From Loktanella sp. (GTDB lineage: Bacteria > Pseudomonadota > Alphaproteobacteria > Rhodobacterales > Rhodobacteraceae), in assembly GCA_017390475.1 (NCBI GenBank), contig JAFPBO010000030.1, positions 1 through 64,000 on the forward strand: 64,000 nt of DNA. The letters are read 5' to 3'. Below are positions 41,152 through 57,415 of the stretch, in pieces. The stretch's first letter is position 1, and every line of letters begins with the position of its first letter. The translations under genes and the position numbers were made by a program. The notes below the pieces were generated by a model, which saw only the letters and a list, made by a program, of their open reading frames with translations, searched no databases and was not told the origin of the DNA.

Positions 41152-41957
41152 CTGATATCCTCGCCAAGATCAAAGCCTACAAGCTGGAAGATGTGGCACA
41201 ACGCAAAGCCGCCCTGCCGCAGGCCGATGTCGAGGCACAAGCCCGCGCCGCCGCCCCCGTGCGCGGTTTCGCCGATGCCTTGGCCGATGCCAGCCGCGAA
41301 GGTTACGGCCTGATCGCCGAGATCAAGAAAGCCAGCCCGTCCAAAGGGTTGATCCGCGAAGATTTCGACCCCGCAGCCCTTGCGCAAGCCTATGAACAAG
41401 GCGGTGCCACCTGCCTGTCGGTCCTGACCGACGGCCCGTCCTTCCAAGGCGACGACAGCTATCTGGCGCTGGCCCGCGACGCCTGCGCCCTGCCCGCGCT
41501 GCGCAAGGATTTCCTCTATGATCCGTGGCAAGTCGCGGAATCCCGCGCGCTGGGGGCCGATTGCATCCTGATCATCATGGCCTCTGTCAGCGATGCACAG
41601 GCGCAGGAACTGGAACAGGCCGCGATCCAATGGAACATGGATGTGCTGATCGAGGTGCATGACCAAGACGAACTCGACCGCGCAATCCTGCTGCAATCGC
41701 CGCTGATCGGGATCAACAACCGCAATCTCAAGACATTCGAGGTGACGCTGGACACCACCCGCAAACTCTCGAAACTCGTCCCTGAGGATCGCCGCGTCGT
41801 CTGCGAAAGCGGCCTCTTCACTCCCGAAGACCTTGCCGATATGGCCCGCTACGGCATCCGCGCCTTCCTGATCGGGGAAAGCCTGATGCGGCAGGATGAT
41901 GTCGCCAGCGCCACCGCCCGCCTGCTCGCCAACCCGGCGACCGGAGGCGTGATGTGA
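41148..41957 (+). CDS. trpC: indole-3-glycerol phosphate synthase
   Basis: 269 residues, TIM barrel. The signature is [19 protein letters not shown] near residue 58. [12 protein letters not shown] has the catalytic Lys, [13 protein letters not shown] the substrate loop, and [11 protein letters not shown] the phosphate loop. There is no TrpF domain, and trpF is not in the window. It overlaps ung (ATGA) upstream and moaC downstream. Confidence 0.96.
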
Positions 41958-42430
41958 CCGGGCTGACGCATTTCGACGCCGAGGGTCAGGCGCATATGGT
42001 CGATGTCTCGGACAAGGCCGTCACCGACCGCATCGCCGTGGCCGAGGCGCATATCGTGATGTCCGACGCGACCCTCGCGCTGATCACCGAAGGCCGCGCC
42101 AAAAAAGGCGACGTGCTGGGCATCGCCCGGATCGCGGGGATCATGGGGGCAAAGAAAACCGCCGAGCTCATCCCGCTCTGCCACCCTTTGCCGATCACCA
42201 AGGTGAGCGTGGAGCTGACCCCCGACCCCGCCCTGCCCGGCATCCGCATCAGCGCCACGGTGAAAACCAGCGGCCAGACCGGGGTCGAGATGGAGGCGTT
42301 AACGGCGGCCAGCACCGCCGCGCTGACAATCTACGACATGGTCAAAGCGGTGCAGAAAGACATGGTCATCGGCGGGCTGCGGGTGACGCTGAAGGATGGC
42401 GGCAAAACCGGACGGTTTGAAAACCCATGA
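41954..42430 (+). CDS. moaC: cyclic pyranopterin monophosphate synthase
   Basis: 158 residues, GTG start overlapping the trpC stop (GTGA) with GGAGG seven bases upstream. Makes cPMP in the first stage of molybdenum/tungsten cofactor synthesis. Motifs: [20 protein letters not shown], and [20 protein letters not shown] with the catalytic residues, then KAVQKDM. MoaA is not present in the window. Confidence 0.96.
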
Positions 42431-43599
42431 TCAGCGTCGATGACGCCCTTGCCAAACTCTTCGCGCTGGTCGCACCGCTCCCTGCCGAGACGGTCACGTT
42501 GCGCGCCGCCGCTGGCCGGGTGCTGTCCCGCGATATCAGCGCAAGGCGCGATCAGCCGCCCTTTGCCGCCTCTGCCATGGATGGCTATGCGATCAAGGCC
42601 GCGGATTACGCCCAAGGCACCCACCTCCAAGTCATCGGCGAATCTGCCGCAGGCCACGGCTGGCACGGCACATTGTCCGCAGGTCAGGCCGTCCGCATCT
42701 TCACCGGCGCGCCACTGCCGGACGGGGCCAATCACGTCGTCATTCAGGAAAACGTCCAACGTGATGGCGAAAATATCACCATCACCGACACGACAGACCA
42801 AGGCGCAAACATCCGCCCCGCAGGCGGCGATTTCCGCATCGGCGACCAGATCACAGCCCCCCGCCTGCTGACCCCCGCCGATATCGCGCTGCTGGCGGCG
42901 ATGAATATCGCGCAGGTCCCGGTCACGCGCAAACCCGTGGTGGCGATCATCGCGACGGGCGACGAACTGGTCCAACCGGGCGACACACCCGGCCCGGATC
43001 AGATCATCGCCTCCAACAGCTACGGCCTTGCTGCCTTGATCACGGCGCAGGGTGGCACCGCACGCCTGCTGCCCATCGCACGTGACACGATCCCGTCACT
43101 GGAACAGGCCTTCACCCTCGCACAGGATGCCGATCTGATCATCACCATCGGCGGTGCCTCGGTCGGCGATCACGATCTGGTCGGACAAGTGGCGGCGTCG
43201 TTGGGGATGGATCGCAGTTTCTACAAAATCGCCATGCGGCCCGGCAAACCGCTGATGGCGGGCAAACTCGGGCGCTCTGCGATGATCGGCCTGCCCGGCA
43301 ACCCGGTCTCGGCCATGGTCTGCGGCCATGTCTTCGTGCTGCCGGTGCTGCGCAAAATGCTCGGCCTCGGCACCGCCGTCGCCGCCACGCAAAACGCCCG
43401 CCTGACCCATGATACCCAGGCTAACGGACCACGCGCCCATTACATGCGCGCCAGATATGATGCGCAAGGCGTCACGATCTTCGACAGGCAGGACAGCAGC
43501 CTGCTTAGCATTCTGGCGCAGGCAAACTGCCTCGCGCTGCGTCCGCCACATGACCCGGCACAACCCGCAGGCGATATGGTGCAGATCATCCCGCTCTGA
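42427..43599 (+). CDS. moeA: molybdopterin molybdotransferase
   Basis: 390 residues. Inserts molybdate (or tungstate) into adenylylated molybdopterin. [18 protein letters not shown] and [17 protein letters not shown] mark the N-terminal part. The MoaB/Mog-like central domain has [14 protein letters not shown] and [12 protein letters not shown], then [13 protein letters not shown] and [11 protein letters not shown]. The start overlaps moaC (ATGA). It is the last gene before the formate dehydrogenase region, which needs this cofactor. Confidence 0.96.
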
Positions 43600-43685: not shown

Positions 43686-44957
43686 TCAGTCAATCGCCGC
43701 TGTGGCACGCGCCAGAAAGGCGACCAGCGCGGCGCGGTCGGCTTCGGCGCTGATCCGCTGTTCCGGCATCCGTGATCCGGGGGTATAGGCCTCGGGGCCA
43801 TATTTGAACAGATCGGCGACGCTCTGTTCATCCCAGATAATATCCATGTCGCGCAGGGCGGCAGAATAATCATAACCTGGTTGTGCCGCAATCGGACGGC
43901 CCAGCACACCGTGCAGACTGGGCCCGGCCCGGCTGTCATCATCCGGTGTCAGCGCGTGGCATACAGCGCAGCTTTGCCAGATTTCGGCACCACGGCTGCC
44001 ATCATCATAATCGGCGGTCACCACCCCGGCATGATCGCCCAAGGGTGTGGCATCTTCCAGCGACCAGCGCCGGATCAGCCCATCGGCACCTGCGGTAAAG
44101 ACCTGGGTCGGGGTCAGCGTCAGGCCCCAGACCGGCCCGCTGGCGGCAGTAAACATATGGCGTTGCGCCAGATCGCCCGCCGCCAGCAGCCAGACCGTGC
44201 CGTCAATCGCCGCAGTGGCAATATCAGCAGAGGTCGCGGCAACCGCCACAAGCGGACGGTCGGTCAGAAACCGTTCCGGCAGCAGATCGCCATTTTGGGC
44301 ATAAAGCCGCAAGGCCCCTTCGGCAAAGATCACGGCAATCCGGTCACCGCTGACCGCCAGCCCGTTCGGCAGATCCGGCAGGTCACGGCGGAATTGCAGA
44401 TCGAGCCCGCCTGTCCAGCGCGCCAGCCGCAGATCCCCCCCAACCGTGACAAGATCACCGCCGGGCAGAAAGCCCAGTCCCACCACACGGTCGGTATGGG
44501 CCTGCATTTCGGTCGTGGTGCGGGTCGCGAGATCAAGCAGCACGACCTGTCCATCCCAGAACCCGGCCGCCACGGCACTGCCGTCAGGCGCCACATCCAA
44601 AGAGGCGATCGGCGATTGCCCAGGCATCGTGGCAAACTCCGGCGCGCGCCCCTGCGCTTGCCACAGCGCCAGCCGCCCATCCTGCCCGGCGGTCACAAAG
44701 CCACCCGCAGGCAGCAGCCTGACCGCCGTCACATTGCCATCATGAAAACGGGTGACGTTACGCGCTGCGGCCGTGTCCAGATCCCACAGGATCGCGCGGG
44801 TATCAAACCCGCCCGACACCAACAGCCCGTCACGCGCATCCAATGCGCCGACCGGCCCGCCATGCCCCGCCAGATCCTGCGCTTGGACCGGCAGCGCCAG
44901 CGCAGTCGCCAGCGCCAGCCAGCCGAGCCTTGGCCCTATGACCGGCCCCGCATTCAA
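43686..44957 (-). CDS. WD40 beta-propeller fused to cytochrome c
   Basis: 423 residues. A signal peptide (LGWLALATALALPVQAQ) is followed by a propeller of seven WD40-like repeats (residues about 28-310, e.g. ALDARDGLLVSGGFDTRAIL). The C-terminal class I cytochrome c domain has haem site C330-A-V-C-H334 and axial Met397 in PGSRMPEQR. It is periplasmic. The only in-frame start before the signal peptide is TTG at 44957, which overlaps the stop of the upstream peptide gene (TTGA), so it depends on translational coupling. Position at the end of the FDH operon suggests an electron carrier or docking partner for FDH. Confidence 0.88.
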   Translation of the reverse strand: MNAGPVIGPRLGWLALATALALPVQAQDLAGHGGPVGALDARDGLLVSGGFDTRAILWDLDTAAARNVTRFHDGNVTAVRLLPAGGFVTAGQDGRLALWQAQGRAPEFATMPGQSPIASLDVAPDGSAVAAGFWDGQVVLLDLATRTTTEMQAHTDRVVGLGFLPGGDLVTVGGDLRLARWTGGLDLQFRRDLPDLPNGLAVSGDRIAVIFAEGALRLYAQNGDLLPERFLTDRPLVAVAATSADIATAAIDGTVWLLAAGDLAQRHMFTAASGPVWGLTLTPTQVFTAGADGLIRRWSLEDATPLGDHAGVVTADYDDGSRGAEIWQSCAVCHALTPDDDSRAGPSLHGVLGRPIAAQPGYDYSAALRDMDIIWDEQSVADLFKYGPEAYTPGSRMPEQRISAEADRAALVAFLARATAAID

Positions 44958-45109
44958 TTGCCGATAAGGTTCGAGCCAGGGTTATCGACCCTGGCACCGT
45001 CACTTGTATAGGCCGCATAGGACGGCTGCTGGAATGTCGTGTTCAACACGAATGACGCGCCAACGGCGGCCACGACGGCGAAAATAACGGCGAACAAAAA
45101 GGCTTTCAT
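44954..45109 (-). CDS. 51-residue single-pass membrane peptide
   Basis: ATG at 45109 with AGGAGA seven bases upstream, 12 bases after mrp. Residues 3-21 are hydrophobic (AFLFAVIFAVVAAVGASF), followed by a polar tail (TSDGARVDNPGSNLIGN). It could be a lone helix or a cleavable signal with a short exported tail. It ends TGA, overlapping the TTG start of the cytochrome gene. No family is recognised. It may couple translation of the next gene or be a small subunit of the FDH complex. Confidence 0.7.
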   Translation of the reverse strand: MKAFLFAVIFAVVAAVGASFVLNTTFQQPSYAAYTSDGARVDNPGSNLIGN

Positions 45110-45121
45110 CTGTTTCTCCTC

Positions 45122-46213
45122 TCAGCTGCGGACCGGGCGCTGGCCCGGCTCCGCAGTATTCAACCCGTCCAGGATCGCACGGGCAATCTGCTTGTAAATC
45201 TGGCCCAAAGGCCCATCCGGCGCGCGCGCCGTGATTGGTTGCCCGGCATCAGAGGCCGCGCGCAACGCCATGGTCAGCGGGACACCACCCAGAAACGGCA
45301 CCGCCAGCCGTGCGGCCTCGGCCTCTGCGCCGCCCTGACCAAAGATCGCATGGCTGCTGCCGCAATCGGGGCAGATGAAATGCGACATGTTTTCGATCAG
45401 GCCAAGGATCGGCACATCGACCTTGCGGAACATCGCGATACCACGGCGGGCATCGATCAACGATAAATCCTGCGGCGTCGATACGATCACCGCCCCCGAA
45501 AGCTGCGTGCCCTGCGCCAGCGCCAGCTGCGCATCACCCGTGCCGGGCGGCATATCGACCAACAGCAGATCCAGCGCACCCCATTCCACATCGGCCATCA
45601 TCTGGGTGATCGCCGACATCACCATCGGGCCACGCCAGACCATCGCGGTTTCGGCATCGACCAGCATGCCCATCGACATCGCCTTGATCCCATAGGCCTG
45701 CATCGGCTTGAGCTTGCGACCCGCACCCATGCCCGGTTTGCCATGCAATCCCAGCAAGGTCGGCAAGGAAGGGCCATAGATATCGGCATCCAATATACCC
45801 ACCGTCAACCCCAGCCCGCGTAGCGCCAGCGCCAGATTGACCGTGGTGGTGGATTTGCCAACCCCCCCTTTGCCAGAGGCGACGGCGATCACATGCCCGA
45901 TCCCCGCCAGCGGATCGGCTTTGCCCGCAGGCTCTGCCACCAGTTTCGGCGGCGCACCGCGTTCTGCGGTCAACACGACAAAGACCGAGGTCACCCCGGG
46001 CAATCCGCGCAACTGCGCGTCCAGATCGTCACGCAGCGGGCCGAATGCCTGCGCCTCATCGGCGCTGACGCTGATCGACAAGCTGACCCGCCCGCCCTGC
46101 ACATTCAGCCCCGCAACCCGCCCGGACGTGCCAAGCCCCTGCCCGTCCGGCAGGACAGCAGCATCCAGCACGGCACGAATGGCGTCATCCAGATTGCGGT
46201 CGGCTGTGGACAT
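45122..46213 (-). CDS. mrp: Mrp/ApbC-type iron-sulfur cluster carrier
   Basis: 363 residues. An N-terminal MIP18/DUF59-like domain (residues 1-90) is followed by the P-loop GKGGVGKSTTTVNLAL near residue 113. DIYGPSLPTLLG, DMPPGTGDAQLALAQG and the cluster-binding ICPDCGSSHAIFG (CxxC) follow. Mrp/ApbC proteins hold a bridging [4Fe-4S] cluster in a homodimer and pass it to targets. The ATG at 46213 is chosen over a GTG nine bases upstream. Its place inside the FDH operon, where many cluster-binding proteins are made, supports dedicated cluster loading. Confidence 0.93.
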   Translation of the reverse strand: MSTADRNLDDAIRAVLDAAVLPDGQGLGTSGRVAGLNVQGGRVSLSISVSADEAQAFGPLRDDLDAQLRGLPGVTSVFVVLTAERGAPPKLVAEPAGKADPLAGIGHVIAVASGKGGVGKSTTTVNLALALRGLGLTVGILDADIYGPSLPTLLGLHGKPGMGAGRKLKPMQAYGIKAMSMGMLVDAETAMVWRGPMVMSAITQMMADVEWGALDLLLVDMPPGTGDAQLALAQGTQLSGAVIVSTPQDLSLIDARRGIAMFRKVDVPILGLIENMSHFICPDCGSSHAIFGQGGAEAEAARLAVPFLGGVPLTMALRAASDAGQPITARAPDGPLGQIYKQIARAILDGLNTAEPGQRPVRS

Positions 46214-46240
46214 TTTTCTCACTTGCGCCTGAAACGAAGA

Positions 46241-46264
46241 CCCAGCCTCTGTGGTGAAGCTGGG
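46241..46264 (-). terminator. weak hairpin after the FDH cytochrome b subunit gene
   Basis: CCCAGC (46241-46246) pairs with GCTGGG (46259-46264) around a 12-base loop, in the 78-base gap before mrp. On the minus strand only a weak T-run follows. It probably attenuates rather than ends transcription. Confidence 0.3.
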
Positions 46265-46291
46265 CCCAAATTACTCTCGTCGGTGCCGGTT

Positions 46292-47293
46292 TTATTCGGC
46301 CGGCGTAGAAGCCCGCGCTGTGCCCGATGTCTTGGCTTTCACCTCGACCTCTTCCACCCAAAGCGCGTGATGCTCTTTGGCCCAGTTCTCATCCACTTCG
46401 CCAGAACCCATCGCGTCGAACGCGCCTTCCATACCGACCGAACCGATATAGATATGGGCAATGATGATCGCCGACAGAACCGCCGCAGCAAGGGCGTGAA
46501 TGGTCTGGAAGAACTGCCAGTCAGCAGCGGCGCCTGCCTCTGCCGGGAACAGCAGCATGACACCGGTGAACGACAAGGCCACGCCCCCCAGGATCACCGA
46601 CCAGAACACCACCTTTTGACCGGCGTTGAATTTCTTCGCGGGCGGATGCACGCCTTTCTTGAGCAGGCCACCACCCTGTTTGATCCAGGCCAGATCGACC
46701 TTGTCGGGGATATTGTCGATCACCCACAGGATCAGGATCAACGCCAGCGCCACCATGAAAGGCCAGGCCAGATAATTATGCGCCAGCTTGCCAAAGGCGG
46801 TCAGACTGCCAAAGGCATTTTCGCCGATGATCGGCAGGATCACGGTTTTGCCGATGACCAAATTCAGCCCGGTCAACGCCAGAATGATAAAGGTCGAGGC
46901 CAGGGTCCAATGCGCGAACCGGTCCAAAGAGTTGAACCGCAGGATCTTGCGGCCCGACATCCCCGCCTCAACCCGGATACGGCCACGGATGACGTAAAAC
47001 AGCGTCAACAGCACAACCATCCCGACAATCGCAACGATGAATACAAAGTTGAGCGTCGTGCCCTGCAGCGCTGCCCAGGCCTTGTTGTCAGGTTTGATCA
47101 GATTGGCTGCATTCTGATCGGGAATGCTGGTCCGGCCAGCGACAGCATTGCCATCTGCGCCCAAAGCCTCGAACATCGAGTCTTCATTGACCGATTGCGC
47201 CGTCGGATTGACCTGCGCCTGCGCATCCATCGTGGTCAATGACAGAAAACCGACGGCCAGAAGGGCAATCATCATTCGTGAAAGAATTTGCAT
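46292..47293 (-). CDS. formate dehydrogenase cytochrome b (gamma) subunit
   Basis: 333 residues. A signal-like helix at the start is followed by a periplasmic stretch (residues 25-75) and four membrane helices. His ligands for two b haems are seen in RFAHWTLAS, KLAHNYLAWP, TIHALAAAVL and IIIAHIYIGSVG. The start at 47293 gives six-base spacing from AAAGGGG; the ATG at 47299 directly abuts it. It passes electrons from the Fe-S subunit to quinone. The gene starts 11 bases after the Fe-S subunit gene. Confidence 0.93.
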   Translation of the reverse strand: MQILSRMMIALLAVGFLSLTTMDAQAQVNPTAQSVNEDSMFEALGADGNAVAGRTSIPDQNAANLIKPDNKAWAALQGTTLNFVFIVAIVGMVVLLTLFYVIRGRIRVEAGMSGRKILRFNSLDRFAHWTLASTFIILALTGLNLVIGKTVILPIIGENAFGSLTAFGKLAHNYLAWPFMVALALILILWVIDNIPDKVDLAWIKQGGGLLKKGVHPPAKKFNAGQKVVFWSVILGGVALSFTGVMLLFPAEAGAAADWQFFQTIHALAAAVLSAIIIAHIYIGSVGMEGAFDAMGSGEVDENWAKEHHALWVEEVEVKAKTSGTARASTPAE

Positions 47294-47304
47294 GATCATC
47301 CCCT

Positions 47305-47901
47305 TTATACCGTAACCGTTTCGCCATAGGCGGTGCGCCAGCCCCAGGCGCCCGATCCATAGCCCCGCGTGACGACACGTTCGCGGTAGATATCGGCGAT
47401 GATGTCGCCATCACCCGCCAGCAGCGCCTTGGTCGAACACATTTCCGCACATAGCGGCAGCTTGCCTTCGGCCAGCCGGTTCGCGCCATATTTGACATAT
47501 TCGGCCTGGCTCATGTCCTCTTCGGGGCCACCCGAACAATAGGTGCATTTGTCCATCTTGCCGCGGGTACCGAAATTGGCAGTCTGCGGATATTGCGGCG
47601 CACCGAACGGACAAGCATAGCTGCAATAGCCGCAGCCGATGCAGGTATCCTTGTTGTGCAACACCACGGCATCATCCGTGGTGTAAAAGCAATTGACCGG
47701 ACAGACCGCCGCGCAGGGCGCATCGGTGCAATGCATACAGGCCATCGACACCGACCGTTCCCCCGGCAGACCATCGTTCAGCGTCACAACGCGCCGCCGG
47801 TTGATGCCCCAAGGAACCTCGTGTTCGTTCTTGCAAGCCGTCACGCAGGCGTTGCATTCGATACAGCGGTCCGCGTCGCATAGAAATTTCATGCGTGCCA
47901 T
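47305..47901 (-). CDS. formate dehydrogenase iron-sulfur (beta) subunit
   Basis: 198 residues. Four [4Fe-4S] sites: Cys13-16-19-23 (CIECNACVTAC), Cys55-58-63-67, Cys87-90-93-97 (CIGCGYCSYAC), and Cys119-122 with Cys151-155. There is no C-terminal membrane helix, unlike E. coli FdnH. Anchoring would therefore rely on the cytochrome b subunit. It transfers electrons from the catalytic subunit to haem. Starts 13 bases after the alpha-subunit stop. Confidence 0.95.
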   Translation of the reverse strand: MARMKFLCDADRCIECNACVTACKNEHEVPWGINRRRVVTLNDGLPGERSVSMACMHCTDAPCAAVCPVNCFYTTDDAVVLHNKDTCIGCGYCSYACPFGAPQYPQTANFGTRGKMDKCTYCSGGPEEDMSQAEYVKYGANRLAEGKLPLCAEMCSTKALLAGDGDIIADIYRERVVTRGYGSGAWGWRTAYGETVTV

Positions 47902-47914
47902 AATCTTTTCTCCC

Positions 47915-50884
47915 TTATGCCGCTGCGATCTGGCAAAGCGTCACTTTGCCTTCATGCATGCCCGTCACCGGATCATAGCCATAGCTGGTAATGACATTGA
48001 CCGATTCACCCAAAACAATCGGATCGGTGCCAGCGGGGTAATTCCCGCGCTGGTCCTCGCCTTCGAACCAACCGGCAAAGTGGAACGGCATAAAGGCAAG
48101 CCCTGCGTTCACCCGTTCCGTCACCAGCGCCTTGACCCGCGCTTTTGATCCACCCTCTGGGCCATAGACCCAGACCCAGCCGCCATCGGCAATCCCGCGC
48201 GCCGTCGCATCGGCGGGATTGATCTCGACGAACATATCCTGCTGCAATTCGGCAAGCCATGGGTTGGACCGGGTCTCTTCGCCGCCACCTTCATATTCGA
48301 CCAGACGGCCGGATGTGAGGATGATCGGGAAGTCCTGCGCCACATTGCGGTCAACCGCGCTTTGCTGCACCGCTTTACCGATATTGGGCATACGCTGCTG
48401 CCACCGGTCCTCGTTGGTGGGATATTCGGCAACCAGTTCCGGGCGGGCCGAATAGATCGGTTCGCGGTGGACCGGGATCGGGTCCGGCAGGTTCCACGCC
48501 ACGGCGCGGGCCTTGCCATTGCCGTAGGGCACGCAACCATGTTCGATCGCCACCCGCTGGATGCCGCCCGACAGGTCGGTTGACCAGCTGACGCCATCGA
48601 CCGCATCTTCCACGCCGCCGCCGATATCCTCCATCACGGCAAGCTCCGCCGCTGTCAGATCGCTGTCCCAGCCCAGCTGCTTCAGCAGGCCCAGGGTGAA
48701 CTCCGGATAGCCATCCTGAATCTCCGACCCAGGGTTAAAGCTACCCTCGGCCAACAGGGTTTCCCCGTCCCGTTCCAGGCCAAAGCGGGGGCGGAACGTG
48801 CCGCCGCCGTCTCTGACAGCTACATTGGTGTTATACAGAATATGGCTGCCCGGATGCCGTAGTTCCGGCGTGCCCCAGCAAGGCCATGGCAGACCGTAAA
48901 AATCACCCCTGATCTCTTCTGGTGCATCGGGTTTCGCACGCAGTGTCACCAGATCGAAATGCTGCTGATTGGCCATATGGGCCTTCAGCCGTTCCGGGCT
49001 CTGACCGGTATAGCCGGTGGACCAGCCGCCGCGGTTGATCTCGCGCATGATTGATTCAGGGGTCGGCTCCATGCCGAATTTGCCCTGCACCAGTTCAAAA
49101 TTCTTGACCATCTCATCGGCAAAACCCAGCCGCTGCGCCAAAGCATAAATCACGGCATAATCATTGTCGGATTCAAAGATCGGATCGACGACCTTTTCCC
49201 CCCATTGGATCGACCGGTTCGATGCGGTGCGCGACCCGGAACATTCAAACTGGGTACAGATCGGCAGCAGATAGGTATTGTCGGTTCTCGAATGCAGCGC
49301 GGCAAATGTCGTCGGATGCGGATCCGCGACCACCAGCAGATCCAGCGCATCCATGCCACGCCTTGCGTCCTGCATCCGTGGCACGGTGTTGCCGCCATGG
49401 CCAAAGACGACCATCGCCTTGATATTGTCTTTCTGGTCGATCTCTTCGCTGTCAATGGTCACGGCATCAAACCAGCGGGTTGATGTGATCCCCGGAATGG
49501 TCATGTTTTCCGCGGGCGTGCGCGCATCGCGACCACCCTTGGCCGGGACCGCATCGAAACGGTCGACGAAATAATCATAGGGCACGTCCCAGACCCGGGC
49601 CCAATGCCGCCAGGCACCTTCGCCCAGACCATAATAGCAAGGCAGGTTCCCCACATCGAGACCGAAATCCGTGGCACCCTGCACGTTGCAGTGACCGCGG
49701 AAGATATTGGCGCCATTGCCTTCACTGCCGACATTGCCCGTCGCCAGCAGCAGCAGGTTATAGGCCCGCACATTGGCGGTGCCGACCGTATGCTGCGTGC
49801 CGCCCATACACCAGATGAATGTGGCCGGACGTTCCTTGGCAAAAGTCTCTGCCGCGCGTTTCAGCGTATCGCCGTCAATGCCGGAAATGCGTTCCACCAC
49901 ATCCGGGGTGTAATCCTTGACGACTTCGCGGACCTGATCCATGCCGTAAACGCGCTGTGCCAGATATTCGGTATCTTCCCAGCCGTTTTCAAAAATATGA
50001 TACAGCATGCCGTTGATCACGGCGATATCGGTGCCCGGACGGAACCGGATATATTCGGTGGCATGCGCCGCTGTCCGGGTGAACCGCGGGTCCAGCACGA
50101 TCACATTGGCGCGCTGTGTTTCCTTGCCTTCCAGGATATGCTGCAACGACACCGGATGTGCCTCTGCGGCATTCGACCCCATGACGATCACGGTCTTGGA
50201 ATTGCGGATGTCATTATAGCTGTTGGTCATCGCACCATAGCCCCAGGTGTTCGCCACCCCGGCCACGGTTGTCGAATGGCAAATACGCGCCTGATGGTCG
50301 ACGTTGTTGGTGCCCCAGAATGCCGCCAGCTTGCGGAACAGATAGGACCCTTCATTGCTGAACTTTGCAGAGCCCAGCAGATAGACGGAATCAGCACCGG
50401 ACGTTTCGCGGATATCGCCCATCTTGGCAGCAATTTCGTCCAGCGCCTGTTCCCAGGTGATCCGCTGCCATTCACCGCCGACCTTTTTCATCGGGTATTT
50501 CAGGCGGCGGTCACCATGCACGACCTCGCGCACCGATGCGCCTTTGGCACAATGGGTGCCGCGGTTGATCGGGCTGTTATAGGCAGGTTCCTGACCGACC
50601 CAGACACCATTCTGCACCTCGGCAAGCACGGTACAACCGACCGAACAATGGGTACACATGTTCTTTTTGATTTCGATAGGCTGCGCCATATCGGTAAAAC
50701 CGGCAGCCTCGACGCGCTGGGTCAGGCCAGCGCCCATTGTGGCAACGGCGGCCAGCCCCCCGATACTCAGCCCCGAGGCGCGCAGAAAGCTGCGGCGGTC
50801 CATTGGTTTCGCGGACATGCCTGCCGCCATCTGCGACAAACGGCCCGCGGTCGCTGTCTCGCGTGATCTGCGTTTTACCAGCAT
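47915..50884 (-). CDS. formate dehydrogenase catalytic (alpha) subunit, Cys form
   Basis: 989 residues. The Tat signal is DRRSFLRASG at residues 29-38 after a long basic N-terminus; a start at residue 28 is the alternative. The [4Fe-4S] ligands are Cys77, 80, 84 and 112. The metal ligand is Cys202 in ARICHSTTVAGVANTWG, where E. coli FdnG has selenocysteine; no in-frame UGA is present. The bis-pterin binding domains and a C-terminal aspartate-decarboxylase-like barrel follow. Mo versus W cannot be told from sequence, but an adjacent tungstate transporter favours W. The ATG shares a base with the upstream TGA. Confidence 0.96.
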   Translation of the reverse strand: MLVKRRSRETATAGRLSQMAAGMSAKPMDRRSFLRASGLSIGGLAAVATMGAGLTQRVEAAGFTDMAQPIEIKKNMCTHCSVGCTVLAEVQNGVWVGQEPAYNSPINRGTHCAKGASVREVVHGDRRLKYPMKKVGGEWQRITWEQALDEIAAKMGDIRETSGADSVYLLGSAKFSNEGSYLFRKLAAFWGTNNVDHQARICHSTTVAGVANTWGYGAMTNSYNDIRNSKTVIVMGSNAAEAHPVSLQHILEGKETQRANVIVLDPRFTRTAAHATEYIRFRPGTDIAVINGMLYHIFENGWEDTEYLAQRVYGMDQVREVVKDYTPDVVERISGIDGDTLKRAAETFAKERPATFIWCMGGTQHTVGTANVRAYNLLLLATGNVGSEGNGANIFRGHCNVQGATDFGLDVGNLPCYYGLGEGAWRHWARVWDVPYDYFVDRFDAVPAKGGRDARTPAENMTIPGITSTRWFDAVTIDSEEIDQKDNIKAMVVFGHGGNTVPRMQDARRGMDALDLLVVADPHPTTFAALHSRTDNTYLLPICTQFECSGSRTASNRSIQWGEKVVDPIFESDNDYAVIYALAQRLGFADEMVKNFELVQGKFGMEPTPESIMREINRGGWSTGYTGQSPERLKAHMANQQHFDLVTLRAKPDAPEEIRGDFYGLPWPCWGTPELRHPGSHILYNTNVAVRDGGGTFRPRFGLERDGETLLAEGSFNPGSEIQDGYPEFTLGLLKQLGWDSDLTAAELAVMEDIGGGVEDAVDGVSWSTDLSGGIQRVAIEHGCVPYGNGKARAVAWNLPDPIPVHREPIYSARPELVAEYPTNEDRWQQRMPNIGKAVQQSAVDRNVAQDFPIILTSGRLVEYEGGGEETRSNPWLAELQQDMFVEINPADATARGIADGGWVWVYGPEGGSKARVKALVTERVNAGLAFMPFHFAGWFEGEDQRGNYPAGTDPIVLGESVNVITSYGYDPVTGMHEGKVTLCQIAAA

Positions 50885-51099
50885 CAGTTATCCCCCCGCA
50901 CATAGTAACGATTTGTTCTGTAAAAATTCTCGACATGTTCGGTCAGCTGATAGCGCGCGCGGGTGCGTTCCTCGCCCGATTGCTGCGCAAAGGCTGGCCG
51001 CGCTGTCCCGGTGGTCAGCACCGCCGCAGAGGCCGCACCCGTGGCGGCCACGCCAAAAAACGACCGCCGGCTCAGTGGGTTGTGTTTGTCATGTGCCAT
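50884..51099 (-). CDS. Tat-signal small protein of FDH regions
   Basis: 71 residues. A twin-arginine signal, LSRRSFFGVAATGAASAAVL, is followed by TGTARPAFA and a 30-residue polar tail (RARYQLTEHVENFYRTNRYY). Such proteins are found next to Tat-exported formate dehydrogenases and have no fixed function. GGGAGAAG precedes the ATG. It is translationally coupled to the alpha subunit (TGATG), suggesting stoichiometric co-export or a subunit role. Confidence 0.85.
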   Translation of the reverse strand: MAHDKHNPLSRRSFFGVAATGAASAAVLTTGTARPAFAQQSGEERTRARYQLTEHVENFYRTNRYYVRGDN

Positions 51100-51166
51100 C
51101 TGCTTCTCCCAATTGGCAGGAAATGGGCCGCCTCCTGCGCCATCGCCTGATTTCTGTTCATACTAC

Positions 51167-51772
51167 TCAAGCGGCGAGCTGAAACGCCCGCGCTTCGATA
51201 TCTGTCAACAACCTGCCGATTTCGGCCACTGGCCGGTAAAACCGCGCGCTTGGCGCGACAGCCAGATCATCGAAAAACTGCGCCGCCCAAGGCGCGATAT
51301 GTTTGCTGAAAAACGCGGCCTGTGCCTGCGCATTAACCGCAATGTCACCCGCGATCATATCGGCCATCACCGACAGCAGCAGTGCCATATGATCTTCGGG
51401 GTCATGCCGGTTGACCGCGCGCGCCACGCCAAGCTGCGCCAGATCGTCGCGCAACACCGCCAAAGGCCGTTCGTTCAGAAAACCGGTCAGATAAAAGCTG
51501 GCATAGGGCAGCAATTCGCCACGGCCGACCCCGACGAAAAGTTCAAAATATTCGCGTTGCACCGCCTGCGGATCAGCAGTTTTCGCCGCCGTCGCCAGCG
51601 CGCCATAGGCCTGACCCATAGGGGTGTCATCGCCTTGCAACCCGGCGATCTGCGTCAACACAGCCTTGTCAGGCGCTGTGGACAACACATGCGACAGGAA
51701 ACGGTATTGCTCTGCGCGTGCCGCTTCGACTGGATGGATTGCTCGCCCGGTGACGGGCTGGCTGTCTGTCAT
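51167..51772 (-). CDS. TorD/DmsD-family chaperone for FDH
   Basis: 201 residues, all-helical. YFELFVGVGRGELLPYASFYLTGF is the family core (around residue 85), with VNRHDPEDHMALLLSVMADM after it. These chaperones bind the Tat signal of the molybdoenzyme and hold it until cofactor is inserted. It starts the structural FDH operon, with AAGGGT upstream and an inverted repeat 23 bases before the ATG. The following gene is the Tat small protein. Confidence 0.9.
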   Translation of the reverse strand: MTDSQPVTGRAIHPVEAARAEQYRFLSHVLSTAPDKAVLTQIAGLQGDDTPMGQAYGALATAAKTADPQAVQREYFELFVGVGRGELLPYASFYLTGFLNERPLAVLRDDLAQLGVARAVNRHDPEDHMALLLSVMADMIAGDIAVNAQAQAAFFSKHIAPWAAQFFDDLAVAPSARFYRPVAEIGRLLTDIEARAFQLAA

Positions 51773-51794
51773 TGTCGTGTTACCCTTGCTCACT

Positions 51795-51812
51795 GCTGTA
51801 ACGTTGTACAGC
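51795..51812. promoter_or_regulatory. inverted repeat in the FDH operon leader
   Basis: GCTGTA-ACGTTG-TACAGC, perfect six-base arms with a six-base spacer, 23 bases before the TorD-type gene in a 122-base gap. It could be the operator that separates FDH structural genes from the upstream accessory genes. No regulator gene is nearby. Confidence 0.4.
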
Positions 51813-51894
51813 GGCTGCCTAAATCTTAGTCGCCAAGCATCTGAGTGTCCAGCATTTTGATCGCGCTTCACCCCGTCCGGCACCGGTTTCCGGC

Positions 51895-52557
51895 CTATCC
51901 GGGCAAGGCCCCGCCATGCCGTCTGCGCCCCGTCGCAGGCGCGTGATCTGACCCCTCTGCCAGGTCCTGCGACGCCGCCCCTTGCGGGTCCGCCGGTTCT
52001 GCCGCGCTCTCGGGCAGCGGCGGATCGGTCAGCGCCTGATCATGCTGCGACGCAGCAACAGCGACGTCAGCGGGCATCGCTTCGGGGTCATCCGGCATGG
52101 TATCCGGGGCTTCCTGCGATGCTGCAGCGCGGCGCGGCGCGAACAATTCGCGCAGCATTTTCGCCGAACGCTCGGCCGATGGCGCGGCCCCGTCGCCGGG
52201 CACACCGCCGGGCGTGTTCCAGTCCCAAGCATAATCCACCGCCGGATCGGCATGGTCACGGATACCCGGTACCAACATCCATTTGCGGCGCAAGGCCGCG
52301 TTGCGCAGCGCCTGCGGCACACCATGTTGCAGGAACGGACGGATATCGGTCTGCGGTGTCAACTCTTCCAGCGATGGCAGCGCGGCCAGCGCTTCTGCGG
52401 TGATCGATTCGTCTTCGGTTACCTCCACAGCCTCGGCCTCTGCGTCAGCCTCTGGCGCGGCAGGCAGCGGGTCCGGCGCGATCTGGTCATCCGGGGCCAG
52501 CTTGCGTCTGGACCACCGGCTGAGGAAAGGGGCTTTGTCATCAGGACCTTGCGGCAT
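51895..52557 (-). CDS. DUF3306 protein
   Basis: 220 residues. The conserved part is FLSRWSRRKLAP near the start, then PSLEELTPQTDIRPFLQHGV and LRNAALRRKWMLVPGIRDHA (residues 60-115). Acidic and Ala-rich disordered linkers flank this core, and the C-terminus is unstructured. There is no signal peptide or Cys motif. It appears to be a cytoplasmic helper; DUF3305 and DUF3306 are usually adjacent near formate dehydrogenase genes. Function unknown. Starts 3 bases after the DUF3305 stop. Confidence 0.8.
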   Translation of the reverse strand: MPQGPDDKAPFLSRWSRRKLAPDDQIAPDPLPAAPEADAEAEAVEVTEDESITAEALAALPSLEELTPQTDIRPFLQHGVPQALRNAALRRKWMLVPGIRDHADPAVDYAWDWNTPGGVPGDGAAPSAERSAKMLRELFAPRRAAASQEAPDTMPDDPEAMPADVAVAASQHDQALTDPPLPESAAEPADPQGAASQDLAEGSDHAPATGRRRHGGALPG

Positions 52558-52560
52558 GGT

Positions 52561-53091
52561 TTACCTCTTGCGCTGGGGCTGCACCCATTTATCCGCCTCC
52601 TGCAATACACGCGGCGCGCGGGCCGCCATCGCATTGGGATCGACTGGCAGACGTTTGCGTTTCTTGAACGGCATATCGACATGATGCGCAGCGATGAAAC
52701 CGGCGATATGGTCGACCAGGACCGGCGGCATCGGCACTGCCTCGACCCGCAGTTCCAGATCAGAGGCATAGCCCTCCCCCTCATAGGGGTCGGCGGTCAC
52801 GGCGATGACCTGCGCGGTTTCGGGGTCCTGACCGCGCAGCGCCACCCAGACCGACGGGCGGCCAGAGGTCAGGTTATCGCGGTGATGCGACGTATCGCCG
52901 GAATACAGCACCAGATCACGGCCGCCCAGATACCAGGTCTCGACCCCGTTTTCCGCAAACAACAGGCTGTTGGCCGCCGCCTGCGGTTCCTGGGCCAGCA
53001 CGGCGCAGGGGCGCAATTCGCCTTTGCCCCATTTTGTTACCGGCGGTCGCCGGACCGCCAGAACAGAGATGCGCAATGTGTCTTGTGGCAT
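52561..53091 (-). CDS. DUF3305 protein
   Basis: 176 residues. The conserved body (ISVLAVRRPPVTKWGKGEL, then PSVWVALRGQDPETAQVIAV and ADPYEGEGY) is a compact beta-rich fold. The tail (KKRKRLPVDPNAMAARAPRV) is basic. No catalytic motif is recognisable. It follows DUF6352 by 10 bases in the same operon. Role unknown; genomic company suggests FDH assembly. Confidence 0.8.
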   Translation of the reverse strand: MPQDTLRISVLAVRRPPVTKWGKGELRPCAVLAQEPQAAANSLLFAENGVETWYLGGRDLVLYSGDTSHHRDNLTSGRPSVWVALRGQDPETAQVIAVTADPYEGEGYASDLELRVEAVPMPPVLVDHIAGFIAAHHVDMPFKKRKRLPVDPNAMAARAPRVLQEADKWVQPQRKR

Positions 53092-53101
53092 GGCACGATC
53101 C

Positions 53102-54091
53102 TCAATGCAGCGCCGGTTCTGCCAAAGGCAGGCCGGTCAGCAGGTTTTGCGGTTTGATCCGCACGGCACCGTCGGCACCAAGACCCAGAAACAGCCAGAT
53201 CGGCTGGCCGCGGAAATCCGGGCGCAGCCGCTGGTCATCGGTGATGTCCAGCCGGAACAGCCCCACCAGCGTCGCCGGTGCCGGGTCATTATGCCACAAA
53301 GCATTGCCGATGGCAGTCCCCACCGGATCAAGCCCGACATACCATTGCAGATCAATGCCTTCGGCGCGGGTTTCGGCACTCACCCGGCAATCCAGCCCCA
53401 GCATATGGCGCAGAAAGGCGGCAATCGCCACTGCCATACCCTGCCGCGCTGCCGGGTCACCACCGAAATTCAACACCATGCTATGCGCGTCAGACCGCGA
53501 CCAATAGGTCCAGTCATTCGCAGCCCCCAGCACGTCCAGCCCGGCAACCCCCCCCGACAGCATGGCGGTCAGCGGCGAATAATGCATTTCCTGTTCCAAA
53601 ACCTGCACCAGTTCCTCGTCCGCCAGAAACAGCTGATCGTTTTCAATATGGCTGCGCTGCGGGCGAAAGAAACATTCCGCCGCGCGCAGCACATAAGGGT
53701 CGTCGCAGCCATCCAGCGCATTGCGCAGGATCAGCTGCACCATCTGGCTCATGAACAAGGCAGGCACCATGACACCGTCGCGGACGATCTGGGCATAGCC
53801 CGCCTCGATCGTGCCCGCCGCCAGCAACCGGTCCCGTAAAGAGATCAGAAACCGCCAGTTTTCCTCGGCGTCAGGGTCCTGCAACGCGATCAGTTCCAGT
53901 TCTGACACTTTCGCCCGTGGCTGCGCCACCAGCCGGGCATGCAGGTTGCGTTCGGCGGCACAGGCCTCTGCCGGGGGCAGGATTTCGGGCCGCGCCAACC
54001 AGGCGAGGATCAGTTCATCAGTGACCTGCATCCGGCCAGATTGGTCCAGCCGCGTCAGATGGTGGCCAGAGGCAACCCAGAATTCCGGCAT
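53102..54091 (-). CDS. DUF6352 protein
   Basis: 329 residues. FWVASGHHLTRLDQSGRMQV at the N-terminus and YWSRSDAHSMVLNFGGDPAA in the middle are the striking conserved runs. The middle domain is helical, LFMSQMVQLILRNAL. There is no Cys-rich or P-loop motif. It ends in a structured LDITDDQRLRPDFRGQPIWL segment. Coupled to DUF6505 upstream (TGATG overlap). Function unknown. HH near the start and the DAH segment could be metal ligands, which is conjecture. Confidence 0.78.
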   Translation of the reverse strand: MPEFWVASGHHLTRLDQSGRMQVTDELILAWLARPEILPPAEACAAERNLHARLVAQPRAKVSELELIALQDPDAEENWRFLISLRDRLLAAGTIEAGYAQIVRDGVMVPALFMSQMVQLILRNALDGCDDPYVLRAAECFFRPQRSHIENDQLFLADEELVQVLEQEMHYSPLTAMLSGGVAGLDVLGAANDWTYWSRSDAHSMVLNFGGDPAARQGMAVAIAAFLRHMLGLDCRVSAETRAEGIDLQWYVGLDPVGTAIGNALWHNDPAPATLVGLFRLDITDDQRLRPDFRGQPIWLFLGLGADGAVRIKPQNLLTGLPLAEPALH

Positions 54092-54636
54092 CAGTCTTTT
54101 CCTCGCAACGCGAAAAGATCGACATGATCATCGACCTCTTCGACAAAATGAAATGCACGGTCATGGCCCTGCAGATGGCTGCCGGAAAAAGCAGTCGCAT
54201 CGCGGGGTTTGAGCGTGCGGAACTGTTCGACAATCGCGTCGCCATCGAAACGGCGGTGCAACGCGACCAAGGTGTTCAGCGGATGCTGCTGACACAGGCT
54301 TTCGCACAAGGCAACCTCTTCTTCGGCGGCTGGCAGGGCGGCGGCGAGTGACGGTGCGCCCAGTTGGGTGACCAATTGCCGCGCCAGTGCCGTCACCATC
54401 GCCGCGCGCTCATCCGCCCCGGCCTGCTGCACCGTGACCAACGTGGAATGGCCAAAACTGTCCACGCCCAGAAACCCTGACCGAAAGGCGATCGCCTCTT
54501 TGCGCGACAGACTGTCCGCCGCGCGACCCCAGAACAAAAAGGTGCCGGGCACCGCCCATTCCCCGGGTTCTGCCGCATGGCTGAACACCACCTTGTCAGA
54601 ACCATCAAGCCTGATCGTGCGCGGCAGACGGGTCAC
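54091..54636 (-). CDS. DUF6505 protein
   Basis: 181 residues. TIRLDGSDKVVFSHAAEPGE and WAVPGTFLFWG form the N-terminal conserved part. RSGFLGVDSFGHSTLVTV follows; the C-terminal part is helical and acidic. No known catalytic motif. Overlaps the ligase-like gene by four bases and DUF6352 by one. Probably a partner of DUF6352; function unknown. Confidence 0.78.
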   Translation of the reverse strand: MTRLPRTIRLDGSDKVVFSHAAEPGEWAVPGTFLFWGRAADSLSRKEAIAFRSGFLGVDSFGHSTLVTVQQAGADERAAMVTALARQLVTQLGAPSLAAALPAAEEEVALCESLCQQHPLNTLVALHRRFDGDAIVEQFRTLKPRDATAFSGSHLQGHDRAFHFVEEVDDHVDLFALRGKD

Positions 54637-55355
54637 AATTTCGGCCCCTGCGGCCCGCGCCAGCCCGACCCGTTCAGCGCCTCCAGCAAGGGTGCAGACC
54701 GTTTCGCGGCCCCTGCCGGTGTGATCTCAACCAGTTGATCACCCTCCAGCCGGCGCACACCGCGCAACAGCGGCGGATCGATGCGCATCAGATAACGGTT
54801 GGTCACCGCATCCAGCCCGTCATGCGCCCAGCGATCAAAATACAACATCATATAGCTGGCAAAAGTCGCGATAATATCCTCTGACGCATCAAACGTCTCT
54901 TCCGTCAACGAGGTGGACTCAGGAAACCGGCCCGGATCAGGCAGATGATCGCGATCCGCGATAAGCTCTGCGGCGAAGACCAGCCAGTCGGGCACGTCGT
55001 CCGGCCCGGTGCCGGGCGCGATGGCAAAACGGCCACCGCCCAGCCGCGCCTTGTCATAGCGCAATTCATCCGGCCAGACCAGACGCACACTGCGTTCCGG
55101 CGGGCAATGCGCGGCCAGCGCATCGGCCAGCGCCACCATGCCCAGCGGAAAGGCCATCTGCGCCTCGGCCAGCTTTTGCTCGGGTTCCAGCACCACGGCA
55201 AAGGCCAGCAGATCCGGCCCCGCGTGACAGATCAGCGTGCCCGCGCCATGCTCTGGCGCCAGCGCTACGGCCTGCGCCAGTACATCCGGCCCGGTCGCCG
55301 GATGCAGCCGGAACGGCGGCGGCAACAGGATCTGACCCAGCTTCGTGGTTTGCAT
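54633..55355 (-). CDS. biotin/lipoate ligase-fold protein (DUF4444-type), probably non-catalytic
   Basis: 240 residues. TLICHAGPDLLAFAVVLEPE and VRLVWPDELRYDKARLGGGR match the middle of the biotin/lipoate protein ligase fold: WPDEL corresponds to the WPND segment and a Lys follows. The N-terminal adenylate loop GRGRRGRxW is absent, and the region EHGAGTLICHA replaces it. Ligation activity is thus doubtful. The C-terminal DUF4444-like part is present (VTNRYLMRIDPPLLRGVRRL). The start at 55355 has GGAGG at ideal spacing. It heads the accessory operon, divergent from the polyferredoxin. Confidence 0.75.
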   Translation of the reverse strand: MQTTKLGQILLPPPFRLHPATGPDVLAQAVALAPEHGAGTLICHAGPDLLAFAVVLEPEQKLAEAQMAFPLGMVALADALAAHCPPERSVRLVWPDELRYDKARLGGGRFAIAPGTGPDDVPDWLVFAAELIADRDHLPDPGRFPESTSLTEETFDASEDIIATFASYMMLYFDRWAHDGLDAVTNRYLMRIDPPLLRGVRRLEGDQLVEITPAGAAKRSAPLLEALNGSGWRGPQGPKL

Positions 55356-55462
55356 GAAATCCTCCATTTCCCCCCAATCACTTACGTATGATGTCGCTAC
55401 ACTTTATAACCAAAGCAGACTAGAAGGGCAGTCACCCAGTAGCCAGAGGCGAGAAAAAGCGC

Positions 55463-57415
55463 ATGCTCAAGCAAAATGCAACCCGTATGATCTGTAATTG
55501 CGAAGCGACGATGCCCGCAGAGGCGCAGGCGCTCGGCGGGTTCGGGCGCACGGCCGATCAGCTTTGCCGTGCCCAGCTTGAACATTTCCGCACCGCATTG
55601 GGCGAATTTGCCGATATCACCGTGGCCTGCACCCAGGAAGCGCCGCTGTTCACCGAAGTTGCCGAGGATATGGGCTATTCCGGCCAGCTTCGGTTTGCCA
55701 ATATCCGCGAAACCGCAGGCTGGTCACAGGATGCCCGCGCCTCAGGTCCCAAGATGGCGGCCCTGCTCGCGATGGCGGAACGCGATGCCACATCCTTTGA
55801 CGTGGTCAGCCTTGAAAGCAACGGCGTGGCGCTGATCCTCGGGCGCGATCAGGCCGCGCTTGATCTGGCGCAGAACCTTGCAGATACCCTTGATATCACC
55901 GTGCTGCTGACCCCCGGTGCCGATGTCGCACCACCACGCCAGACCACATGGCCAGTGCTGCAAGGCCGGATCCGGCAGGCGCAGGGCCATCTGGGTGCCT
56001 TTGAACTGACGGTTGATGATTACGCCGCCCCCGCGCCCTCGTCACGGGCGCGGCTGGAATTTCCCCATGGCCGCAACGGGGCGGTGTCGCATTGCGACCT
56101 GCTGATCGACCTGACCGGCGGCACACCCCTATTTCATGAAACCCGCCCCGGCTATTTCCGCGCCGATCCACGTGATCCGGTGGCGCTGGCGAAACTGGCG
56201 GCGCAGGCCGGGCAGATGGTCGGCACGTTCGACAAGCCGAAATACATCAATTTCACCGCCGAGCTTTGCGCCCATAGCCGTAACAAGCTGACCGGCTGCA
56301 CCCGCTGTCTGGACCTGTGCCCCACCGGGGCGATCACCCCGGCAGGCGACAGCGTGGCAATCGACCCCGATATCTGCGCCGGCTGCGGCCAATGCGCCGC
56401 CGCCTGCCCCACCGGTGCCGCCGCCTATGCGCTGCCTGTGGTCGATAATATCGCCGACCGGCTGCGCGCCGGGCTGCAGGCCTGGTTTGATGCAGGCGGC
56501 AGCGCGGCCCCGGTGCTGCTGCTGCATGACGCCGACCATGGCACGCCGCTGATCGACGCCTGCGCGCGGTTCGGGCGCGGCCTGCCTGCGCATGTGATCC
56601 CCTTGCAGATCAACACCGCCGCCCAGATCGGACCAGAGATCATGGCCGCAGCCCTCGCCTATGGCGCAGGCGGTGTGCGGGTCCTGTCCCCGGCGCGGCC
56701 CGCACATCCGCTGGACGGTCTGGCCGAAACGCTGGTGCTGATGGATGCCATCTGCGCCGAAACCGGGCTTGGCGCGGGGGTTTGCAGCCTTCTGGCGCTG
56801 GATGATCCCGATGATCTGGAAACCGCGCTCTGGCAGCCTGCACCCAAGGCGCGCGCCACGCGGTCAGGCTTTCTGCCCCCCGATGACAAGCGCGGGCTGC
56901 TGGTGCTGGCGGTGGATGAACTCAACCGCAACGCCCCGCAACCGGCCCAGGTGATTGCCCTGCCCGACAATGCCCCCTTCGGCGCGGTCGTGCTGGATAC
57001 CGATGCCTGCACACTCTGTCTGGCCTGCGTCGGGGCCTGCCCGACCGGTGCCCTGTCGGATAATCCCGATCTGCCGATGCTGCGCTTTACCGAAAGCGCC
57101 TGTGTGCAGTGCGGGCTCTGCGCCGCGACCTGCCCCGAAACCGCGATCAGCCTGTCAGCGCAGATCGACTTTGCCGCCTGGGCAGCCCCCAAACGCGTGC
57201 TGAAAGAAGAACAGCCCTTTGCCTGCACATCCTGCGGCAAATTGTTCGGCACCAGATCCAGCATCGACCGGGTGCTGCAAAAACTCGACGGCCATTGGAT
57301 GTTCACGGGGGCCGAGGGTGCCGACCGCCGCCGCCTGCTGACCATGTGCGACGATTGCCGCACCCGCGAAGTGGTGATCGCAGGCTTCGACCCACACGAA
57401 AAAGCCGAGGTCTGA
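55463..57415 (+). CDS. polyferredoxin with MvhD-like domain and C-terminal CxxC pairs
   Basis: 650 residues, cytoplasmic. The N-terminal 250 residues are of unknown fold. Iron-sulfur motifs follow: Cys279-282-286 (one Cys short of a standard set; Cys269 could substitute), Cys305-308-311-315, Cys516-519-522-526 and Cys547-550-553-557. Between them, residues 350-440 (VLLLHDADHGTPLIDACARF, then AYGAGGVRVL) resemble the MvhD/hydrogenase delta-subunit fold. C588-591 and C629-632 form a zinc-ribbon-like pair. It is divergent from the accessory operon. It probably moves electrons in FDH maturation or to an unknown acceptor. Confidence 0.85.
   Translation: MLKQNATRMICNCEATMPAEAQALGGFGRTADQLCRAQLEHFRTALGEFADITVACTQEAPLFTEVAEDMGYSGQLRFANIRETAGWSQDARASGPKMAALLAMAERDATSFDVVSLESNGVALILGRDQAALDLAQNLADTLDITVLLTPGADVAPPRQTTWPVLQGRIRQAQGHLGAFELTVDDYAAPAPSSRARLEFPHGRNGAVSHCDLLIDLTGGTPLFHETRPGYFRADPRDPVALAKLAAQAGQMVGTFDKPKYINFTAELCAHSRNKLTGCTRCLDLCPTGAITPAGDSVAIDPDICAGCGQCAAACPTGAAAYALPVVDNIADRLRAGLQAWFDAGGSAAPVLLLHDADHGTPLIDACARFGRGLPAHVIPLQINTAAQIGPEIMAAALAYGAGGVRVLSPARPAHPLDGLAETLVLMDAICAETGLGAGVCSLLALDDPDDLETALWQPAPKARATRSGFLPPDDKRGLLVLAVDELNRNAPQPAQVIALPDNAPFGAVVLDTDACTLCLACVGACPTGALSDNPDLPMLRFTESACVQCGLCAATCPETAISLSAQIDFAAWAAPKRVLKEEQPFACTSCGKLFGTRSSIDRVLQKLDGHWMFTGAEGADRRRLLTMCDDCRTREVVIAGFDPHEKAEV

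Follow-up and report, generated by a model that had tools for sequence, protein, structure and literature searches.

A 64,000-nucleotide stretch of a Loktanella sp. genome (assembly GCA_017390475.1, contig JAFPBO010000030.1, positions 1 to 64,000; hereafter the window) carries, at 43686..57415, the genes of an FDH3-type formate dehydrogenase (FDH) together with a polyferredoxin, a ligase-fold protein, a TorD-like chaperone and members of the families DUF3305, DUF3306, DUF6352 and DUF6505. This accessory set is real and specific, and has partly been noticed before. In the sampled genomes, DUF3305, DUF3306 and the polyferredoxin occur where FDH3 does and nowhere else, and we consider it probable, at roughly 0.6, that the helpers form a dedicated cytoplasmic maturation set for a periplasmic FDH that works without FdhE.

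Helper genes occur with FDH3

The sample was a single draw of 219 genomes of Pseudomonadota. In 179 of these, completeness was 90% or more and contamination no higher than 5%, and all 26 FDH3-positive genomes fall in this subset. The FDH3 beta subunit scored above the NF038355 cut-off in 26 of the 219; at E <= 0.001 the same model matched in 210, where the lower-scoring matches were judged to be other ferredoxin-type proteins. DUF3305, DUF3306 and the polyferredoxin (E <= 1e-30) were likewise each present in 26 genomes, and the four sets of 26 are identical. The chance of a random 26-genome set being the same as a given one is 2.7e-34, a figure that overstates the case since the genomes are related. 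Six genome families (f1, f2, f8, f27, f35 and f50) each contain both FDH3-plus and FDH3-minus members.

The remaining helpers occupy subsets of the 26, with DUF6505 in 17 genomes, DUF6352 in 12 and a high-scoring ligase-fold protein (above 160 bits) in 16. Within the window's own class of 15 genomes, the ligase-fold protein is found in 13, DUF6505 in 14 and DUF6352 in 10. The ligase family PF16917 itself is broad (132 of 219 genomes at E <= 0.001), and its lower-scoring members were treated as ordinary ligases; a match of intermediate score in genome G016 (95.9 bits), which keeps the presumed catalytic lysine and lies far from the FDH genes, was excluded from the 16. Genome G200 has two FDH3 loci, two copies each of DUF3305 and DUF3306, and one polyferredoxin. 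One of its loci (L024) holds DUF3305/DUF3306 and the chaperone, with no polyferredoxin or DUF6352 in view, a gene content that is possibly a minimal helper set.

The initial annotation had proposed an undescribed pathway and named, as the finding that would count against it, DUF genes widespread without FDH. They are not: the genomes with DUF3305, DUF3306 and the polyferredoxin are exactly the 26 with FDH3, and a dedicated accessory set is therefore the right reading. The word 'undescribed' was too strong for DUF3305 and DUF3306, since Bay et al. (2015; PMC4464133) place this same pair upstream of fdh genes, namely in front of 60% of dmsD-fdhGHI operons. There the two are called putative membrane proteins, whereas the window pair has no hydrophobic segment, and DUF6352 and DUF6505 are not named according to term counts. 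The four DUF names turned up in two papers, one of them unrelated judging by its title, and searches limited to open-licence PMC papers brought to light no work on the function of the five families (ligase-fold and the four DUFs).

Probable horizontal movement of the cluster

In a tree of 50 FdhA sequences, the window groups with Yoonia, Paracoccus bogoriensis and Roseibacterium, within a larger group that includes Hyphomicrobiales such as Bosea. The FdhA of a congener (G099) falls in another clade, within a subclade of seven rows, none of which has DUF6352; on the same tree DUF6352 would require at least four gains or losses. Because the FdhA of the window and that of the congener fall in different clades, the tree points to horizontal exchange of the FDH operon within the family and to horizontal replacement relative to G099.

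Such movement would also be expected if the cluster were an ordinary neighbourhood, co-inherited as it moved, with helpers that serve other molybdoenzymes or none in particular. We disfavour this and regard it as very improbable, for two reasons. None of DUF3305, DUF3306, DUF6352, DUF6505 and the polyferredoxin was found without FDH3 in the 219 genomes, and helpers stay with FDH3 even when they are physically apart: DUF6352 still accompanies it at a distance of at least 180 kb in three genomes (G016, G019 and G202), and the polyferredoxin of G016 lies 38 kb from FDH3 in the same genome. In G016 (loci L005, L029, L030 and L122), the polyferredoxin, DUF6505 and DUF6352 are scattered along the contig, with fdhD and a MobA-like gene some 7 kb away from the polyferredoxin.

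FdhD is retained and FdhE is absent

The FDH3 type retains FdhD and does without FdhE. FdhE (PF04216) was found in 0 of 26 FDH3 genomes versus 12 of 32 FDH3-minus genomes hand-picked from 193 for comparison (one-sided Fisher test, 2.5e-4), while FdhD was found in 26 of 26 and 28 of 32, respectively. The window's genome follows this pattern, with no match to FdhE and a single fdhD (243.8 bits) that heads an fdhD-mobA-mobB group on contig C3, outside the window. The earlier statement that neither gene is in view is accurate for the window, but of the two only FdhE is missing from the genome. Of 27 loci, 11 have fdhD no more than 20 kb from DUF3305, and in six of them the start of fdhD is less than 1.3 kb away. 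Compared with the maturation of Escherichia coli FDH-N/O by FdhD and FdhE, FdhD is common to both systems, and FDH3 genomes carry DUF3305, DUF3306, polyferredoxin and TorD-like genes in place of FdhE.

PMC10609526 presents FdhE as a protein that periplasmic FDHs alone require and that probably proofreads before export. Together with its absence from all 26 FDH3 genomes and the TorD-like nature of the chaperone, this description gives some weight to the idea that the helpers merely stand in for FdhE in quality control and assembly before export by the twin-arginine translocation (Tat) system, without loading any cofactor. We think this unlikely, as proofreading has no obvious need for a polyferredoxin or an iron-sulfur (Fe-S) carrier ATPase.

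The enzyme is of the SoFdhAB family

The helpers accompany an enzyme that is, as judged from its sequence, of the known FDH3 type and Cys type, in the same family as SoFdhAB; the unstudied part is the helper set. Residues 25-988 of the alpha subunit FdhA (47915..50884, minus strand) align to residues 17-948 of SoFdhA (9vap_A) with 1229.7 bits, and the FDH3 beta subunit FdhB (47305..47901, minus strand) scores 338.5 bits with NF038355 (cut-off 240) and matches 9vap_B with E 4.9e-99. Both matches extend over nearly the whole length of the proteins, which indicates one enzyme family. In FdhA, C202 sits in the motif RICHS and is presumably the metal ligand. SoFdhAB uses tungsten (W); the window enzyme may carry W or molybdenum (Mo). 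The structure 9VAP is that of the Shewanella oneidensis Cys-W formate dehydrogenase SoFdhAB (PMC13397495, in part), and the terms 'accessory protein', 'FdhE' and 'polyferredoxin' are absent from the first 300,000 of the 334,378 characters of that paper.

The gamma subunit FdhC (46292..47299, minus strand; TIGR01583, 151.6 bits, cut-off 115.85) is a membrane cytochrome b. Directly upstream of FdhA, a small Tat protein of 71 amino acids (50884..51099, minus strand) resembles FdhX, with 45.8 bits for TIGR02811 against a cut-off of 48.45. Twin-arginine motifs are present in both FdhA (RRSFL) and FdhX (RRSFF).

Compartments and the polyferredoxin

Compartments were assessed by hydropathy and motif alone and for the window proteins only. 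By hydropathy, the window helpers have no clear signal or membrane segment, apart from one borderline window each (1.61-1.62) in the ligase-fold protein and the polyferredoxin. The helpers thus look cytoplasmic, and FdhA appears to be exported via Tat, an arrangement that favours maturation over a new electron acceptor.

The polyferredoxin (55463..57415, plus strand), a core member of the set, has 650 residues, four Fer4 stretches, three full CX2CX2CX3C motifs and a fourth that is incomplete. Its N-terminus resembles HdrA (8rvu, 5odc). A profile of residues 1-262 matched three distinct sequences at E <= 0.01, every one of them HdrA; the lowest E was 1.2e-6 per sequence and 1.3e-4 per stretch. 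The N-terminal stretch of a whole-length profile reached an independent E of 1.1e-6. In our reading of the alignments, the polyferredoxin has GRDQAALDL where HdrA reads GGGVAGIQA, so that the glycine-rich motif of HdrA, which we take to bind flavin adenine dinucleotide (FAD), is not kept. The C-terminus is like HycF, a subunit of formate hydrogenlyase (FHL): the profile of residues 518-644 matches residues 31-161 of HycF (7z0s_F) with E 1.4e-14, and the likeness includes the C-terminal cysteine pairs, with C588, C591, C629 and C632 invariant across 17 rows. For the middle segment, no credible relative was found among solved structures. Three rows outside the window's class (L010, L015 and L020) are without much of the N-terminal part.

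These HdrA-like and HycF-like parts and the four Fer4 stretches are what one would expect if the polyferredoxin and the DUF proteins formed an electron-transfer complex in the cytoplasm, wiring the oxidation of formate or the reduction of CO2 to a new partner there, in the way that HdrA-like and HycF-like proteins work elsewhere. However, the Tat motif of FdhA and its cytochrome b partner put the active site in the periplasm, apart from proteins that have no export signal, and the FAD motif of HdrA is not kept. Because FdhA has a Tat signal, a cytoplasmic wire of this kind is less likely, and we give it little credence; the new electron acceptor of the initial annotation is accordingly unlikely for the DUF proteins and the polyferredoxin.

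The ligase-fold and DUF proteins

The ligase-fold protein (54633..55367, minus strand) matches PF16917 (187.1 bits, cut-off 27); the lysine after the WPN(D) motif, which we take to be the catalytic residue of the ligases, is missing in 78 of 78 ligase-fold sequences of these loci. Because this lysine is gone, the protein is probably a pseudo-enzyme, a binding protein and not an enzyme. The closest solved chain to the family is 3bfm (E 8.4e-29), titled 'biotin protein ligase-like protein of unknown function'.

DUF3305 (52561..53091, minus strand; PF11749, 116.8 bits) and DUF3306 (51895..52557, minus strand; PF11748, 58.8 bits) are the other core members. The AlphaFold2 model of DUF3305 is confident (predicted local distance difference test score, 91.2), and no PDB structure clearly matched it (best Foldseek E 0.43). 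Four of its residues (F142, K144, R145 and R147) are invariant in 44 of 44 sequences and stand at the start of a tail of lower confidence. In DUF3306, short conserved motifs alternate with linkers of low conservation. The protein ends in RRHGGALP in the window and in RRHG(G/S)A in most window-type sequences, with other tails elsewhere, for example RMRF-like ones.

DUF6352 (53102..54091, minus strand; assigned by family match) gave a confident model for which a clear PDB match was not found. DUF6505 (54091..54636, minus strand; PF20115, 192.5 bits) belongs to a family of which 29 of 45 members show weak similarity to DUF7715, at best with E 1.5e-5, and DUF7715 is a possible distant relative outside the FDH system.

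Gene order and translational coupling

Thirteen minus-strand genes and one divergent polyferredoxin gene span 43686..57415, as the initial annotation had placed them, the total of 13 including the 71-residue FdhX-like protein and a hydrophobic protein of 51 residues. Pfam or NCBIfam families could be assigned to the ligase-fold protein, the four DUFs, the TorD-like protein, the three FDH subunits, the ApbC/Mrp protein, the WD40 and cytochrome c protein and the polyferredoxin. The overlaps that the initial annotation described were also found, with intergenic gaps of -4 bases (ligase/DUF6505), -1 (DUF6505/DUF6352), +10 (DUF6352/DUF3305) and +3 (DUF3305/DUF3306).

This arrangement recurs in other genomes, as judged from 80 named loci, which are the best 80 of 580 confirmed ones and hence biased toward relatives of the window type. 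After de-duplication, with start codons picked by script, overlaps of 1-4 bases join ligase and DUF6505 in 42 of 55 same-strand pairs, DUF6505 and DUF6352 in 40 of 51, and DUF3305 and DUF3306 in 43 of 58. The order ligase-DUF6505-DUF6352-DUF3305-DUF3306-chaperone-FdhX-FdhA-FdhB-FdhC is kept whole in 42 of the 57 named loci that span 20 kb or more. Two of these long loci (L107 and L112) have no FDH gene in view and FDH3 beta elsewhere in the genome; it was present in all five genomes queried, that is, these two and three others.

A model of maturation and its weak points

In the maturation that we favour, the TorD/DmsD-like chaperone (51167..51772, minus strand; PF02613, 104.3 bits, cut-off 22.2) would hold apo-FdhA through its Tat signal; the chaperone's likelier start is the ATG at 51772, not the GTG that opens the reading frame at 51883. 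FdhD, encoded elsewhere, would deliver the sulfurated W/Mo-bis-molybdopterin guanine dinucleotide cofactor. The DUF3305/DUF3306 pair may be the platform where FdhD, the chaperone and apo-FdhA(B) meet, with DUF3306 tethering its partners via the short conserved motifs. The polyferredoxin, related to HdrA, lacking the FAD motif and ending in a HycF-like tail, could give electrons or Fe-S clusters during loading, and where a genome has ApbC, that protein could contribute clusters. The ligase-fold/DUF6505 pair and DUF6352 would be add-ons in most versions of the window's class, the ligase fold presumably serving for binding. The loaded enzyme would then be exported and pass its electrons to quinone via cytochrome b. 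A more specific version is possible, and we hold it tentatively, with less confidence than the general one: an FdhE-free cofactor-loading machine for FDHs of the SoFdhAB type (Cys, W/Mo), in which a polyferredoxin derived from HdrA, but devoid of the FAD motif, provides apo-FdhA with electrons or Fe-S clusters while the latter sits on a DUF3305/DUF3306 platform. In this version the folds of DUF6352 and DUF3305 would be previously unseen ones.

Parts of this scheme have counterparts in known systems. In Campylobacter jejuni, FDH activity depends on FdhM, a member of the TorD family (PMC4148689). A TorD-like gene stands beside FDH genes in both organisms; unlike FdhM, the window chaperone sits with DUF3305/DUF3306 and the polyferredoxin, and beyond the shared family its kinship to FdhM (Cj1514) is putative. 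Similarly, MeFDH1 of Methylorubrum extorquens is matured by MoeA1, MobB and FdhD (PMC13197769, partial text), so that, as in the window system, molybdenum cofactor genes and FdhD feed an FDH. MeFDH1 is, however, a different FDH, and the terms FdhE and FDH3 are absent from the available text of that paper.

Several observations weigh against a dedicated maturation set. Co-occurrence alone does not separate maturation from a regulatory or structural role, and FdhD, being present in 28 of the 32 comparison genomes too, is not specific to FDH3. No polyferredoxin is in view at the second FDH3 locus of G200, and the folds of DUF3305 and DUF6352 yielded no functional hint. A putative fusion of MobA with DUF3305, indicated by the name of an NCBIfam model, would be a potential tie to cofactor synthesis, and this model scored above its cut-off in none of the 149 genomes scanned from the family to which the window belongs. 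The helpers would not be strictly needed if SoFdhAB was made active in a host without them. In Cupriavidus necator, transposon mutants of fdw, fdh and fdo had no significant fitness effect, with fdoHI unquantified and operons that may not be FDH3 (PMC11540253, in part).

Neighbouring genes

Downstream of FdhC lies an ApbC/Mrp-type Fe-S carrier ATPase (45122..46222, minus strand; PF10609, 328.7 bits; NF008669, 314.5 bits, below its cut-off of 348). It is followed by the protein of 51 amino acids (44954..45109, minus strand), an open reading frame with one hydrophobic segment by hydropathy, for which scans with family models gave no match; its relatives adjoin fdhC at some other loci, for example L047 and L048. 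The operon ends with a secreted-looking WD40 and cytochrome c protein (43686..44957, minus strand; PF00400, PF00034) with the heme motif CAVCH. It is a candidate periplasmic electron partner and the secreted-looking redox candidate of the cluster, and a relative lies near polyferredoxin or FDH genes in 46 of the 80 named loci. The molybdenum cofactor genes moaC and moeA (41954..43599, plus strand) are convergent with the end of the operon. In several Methylobacterium loci, three moeA-like matches adjoin the FDH cluster.

Implications

The strict co-occurrence of the helpers with FDH3 makes single-gene tests direct. If the FDH3 family needs the helper set, the set would explain how these periplasmic FDHs mature in bacteria without FdhE, and it would fill a gap in the production of such CO2-reducing enzymes by other hosts.

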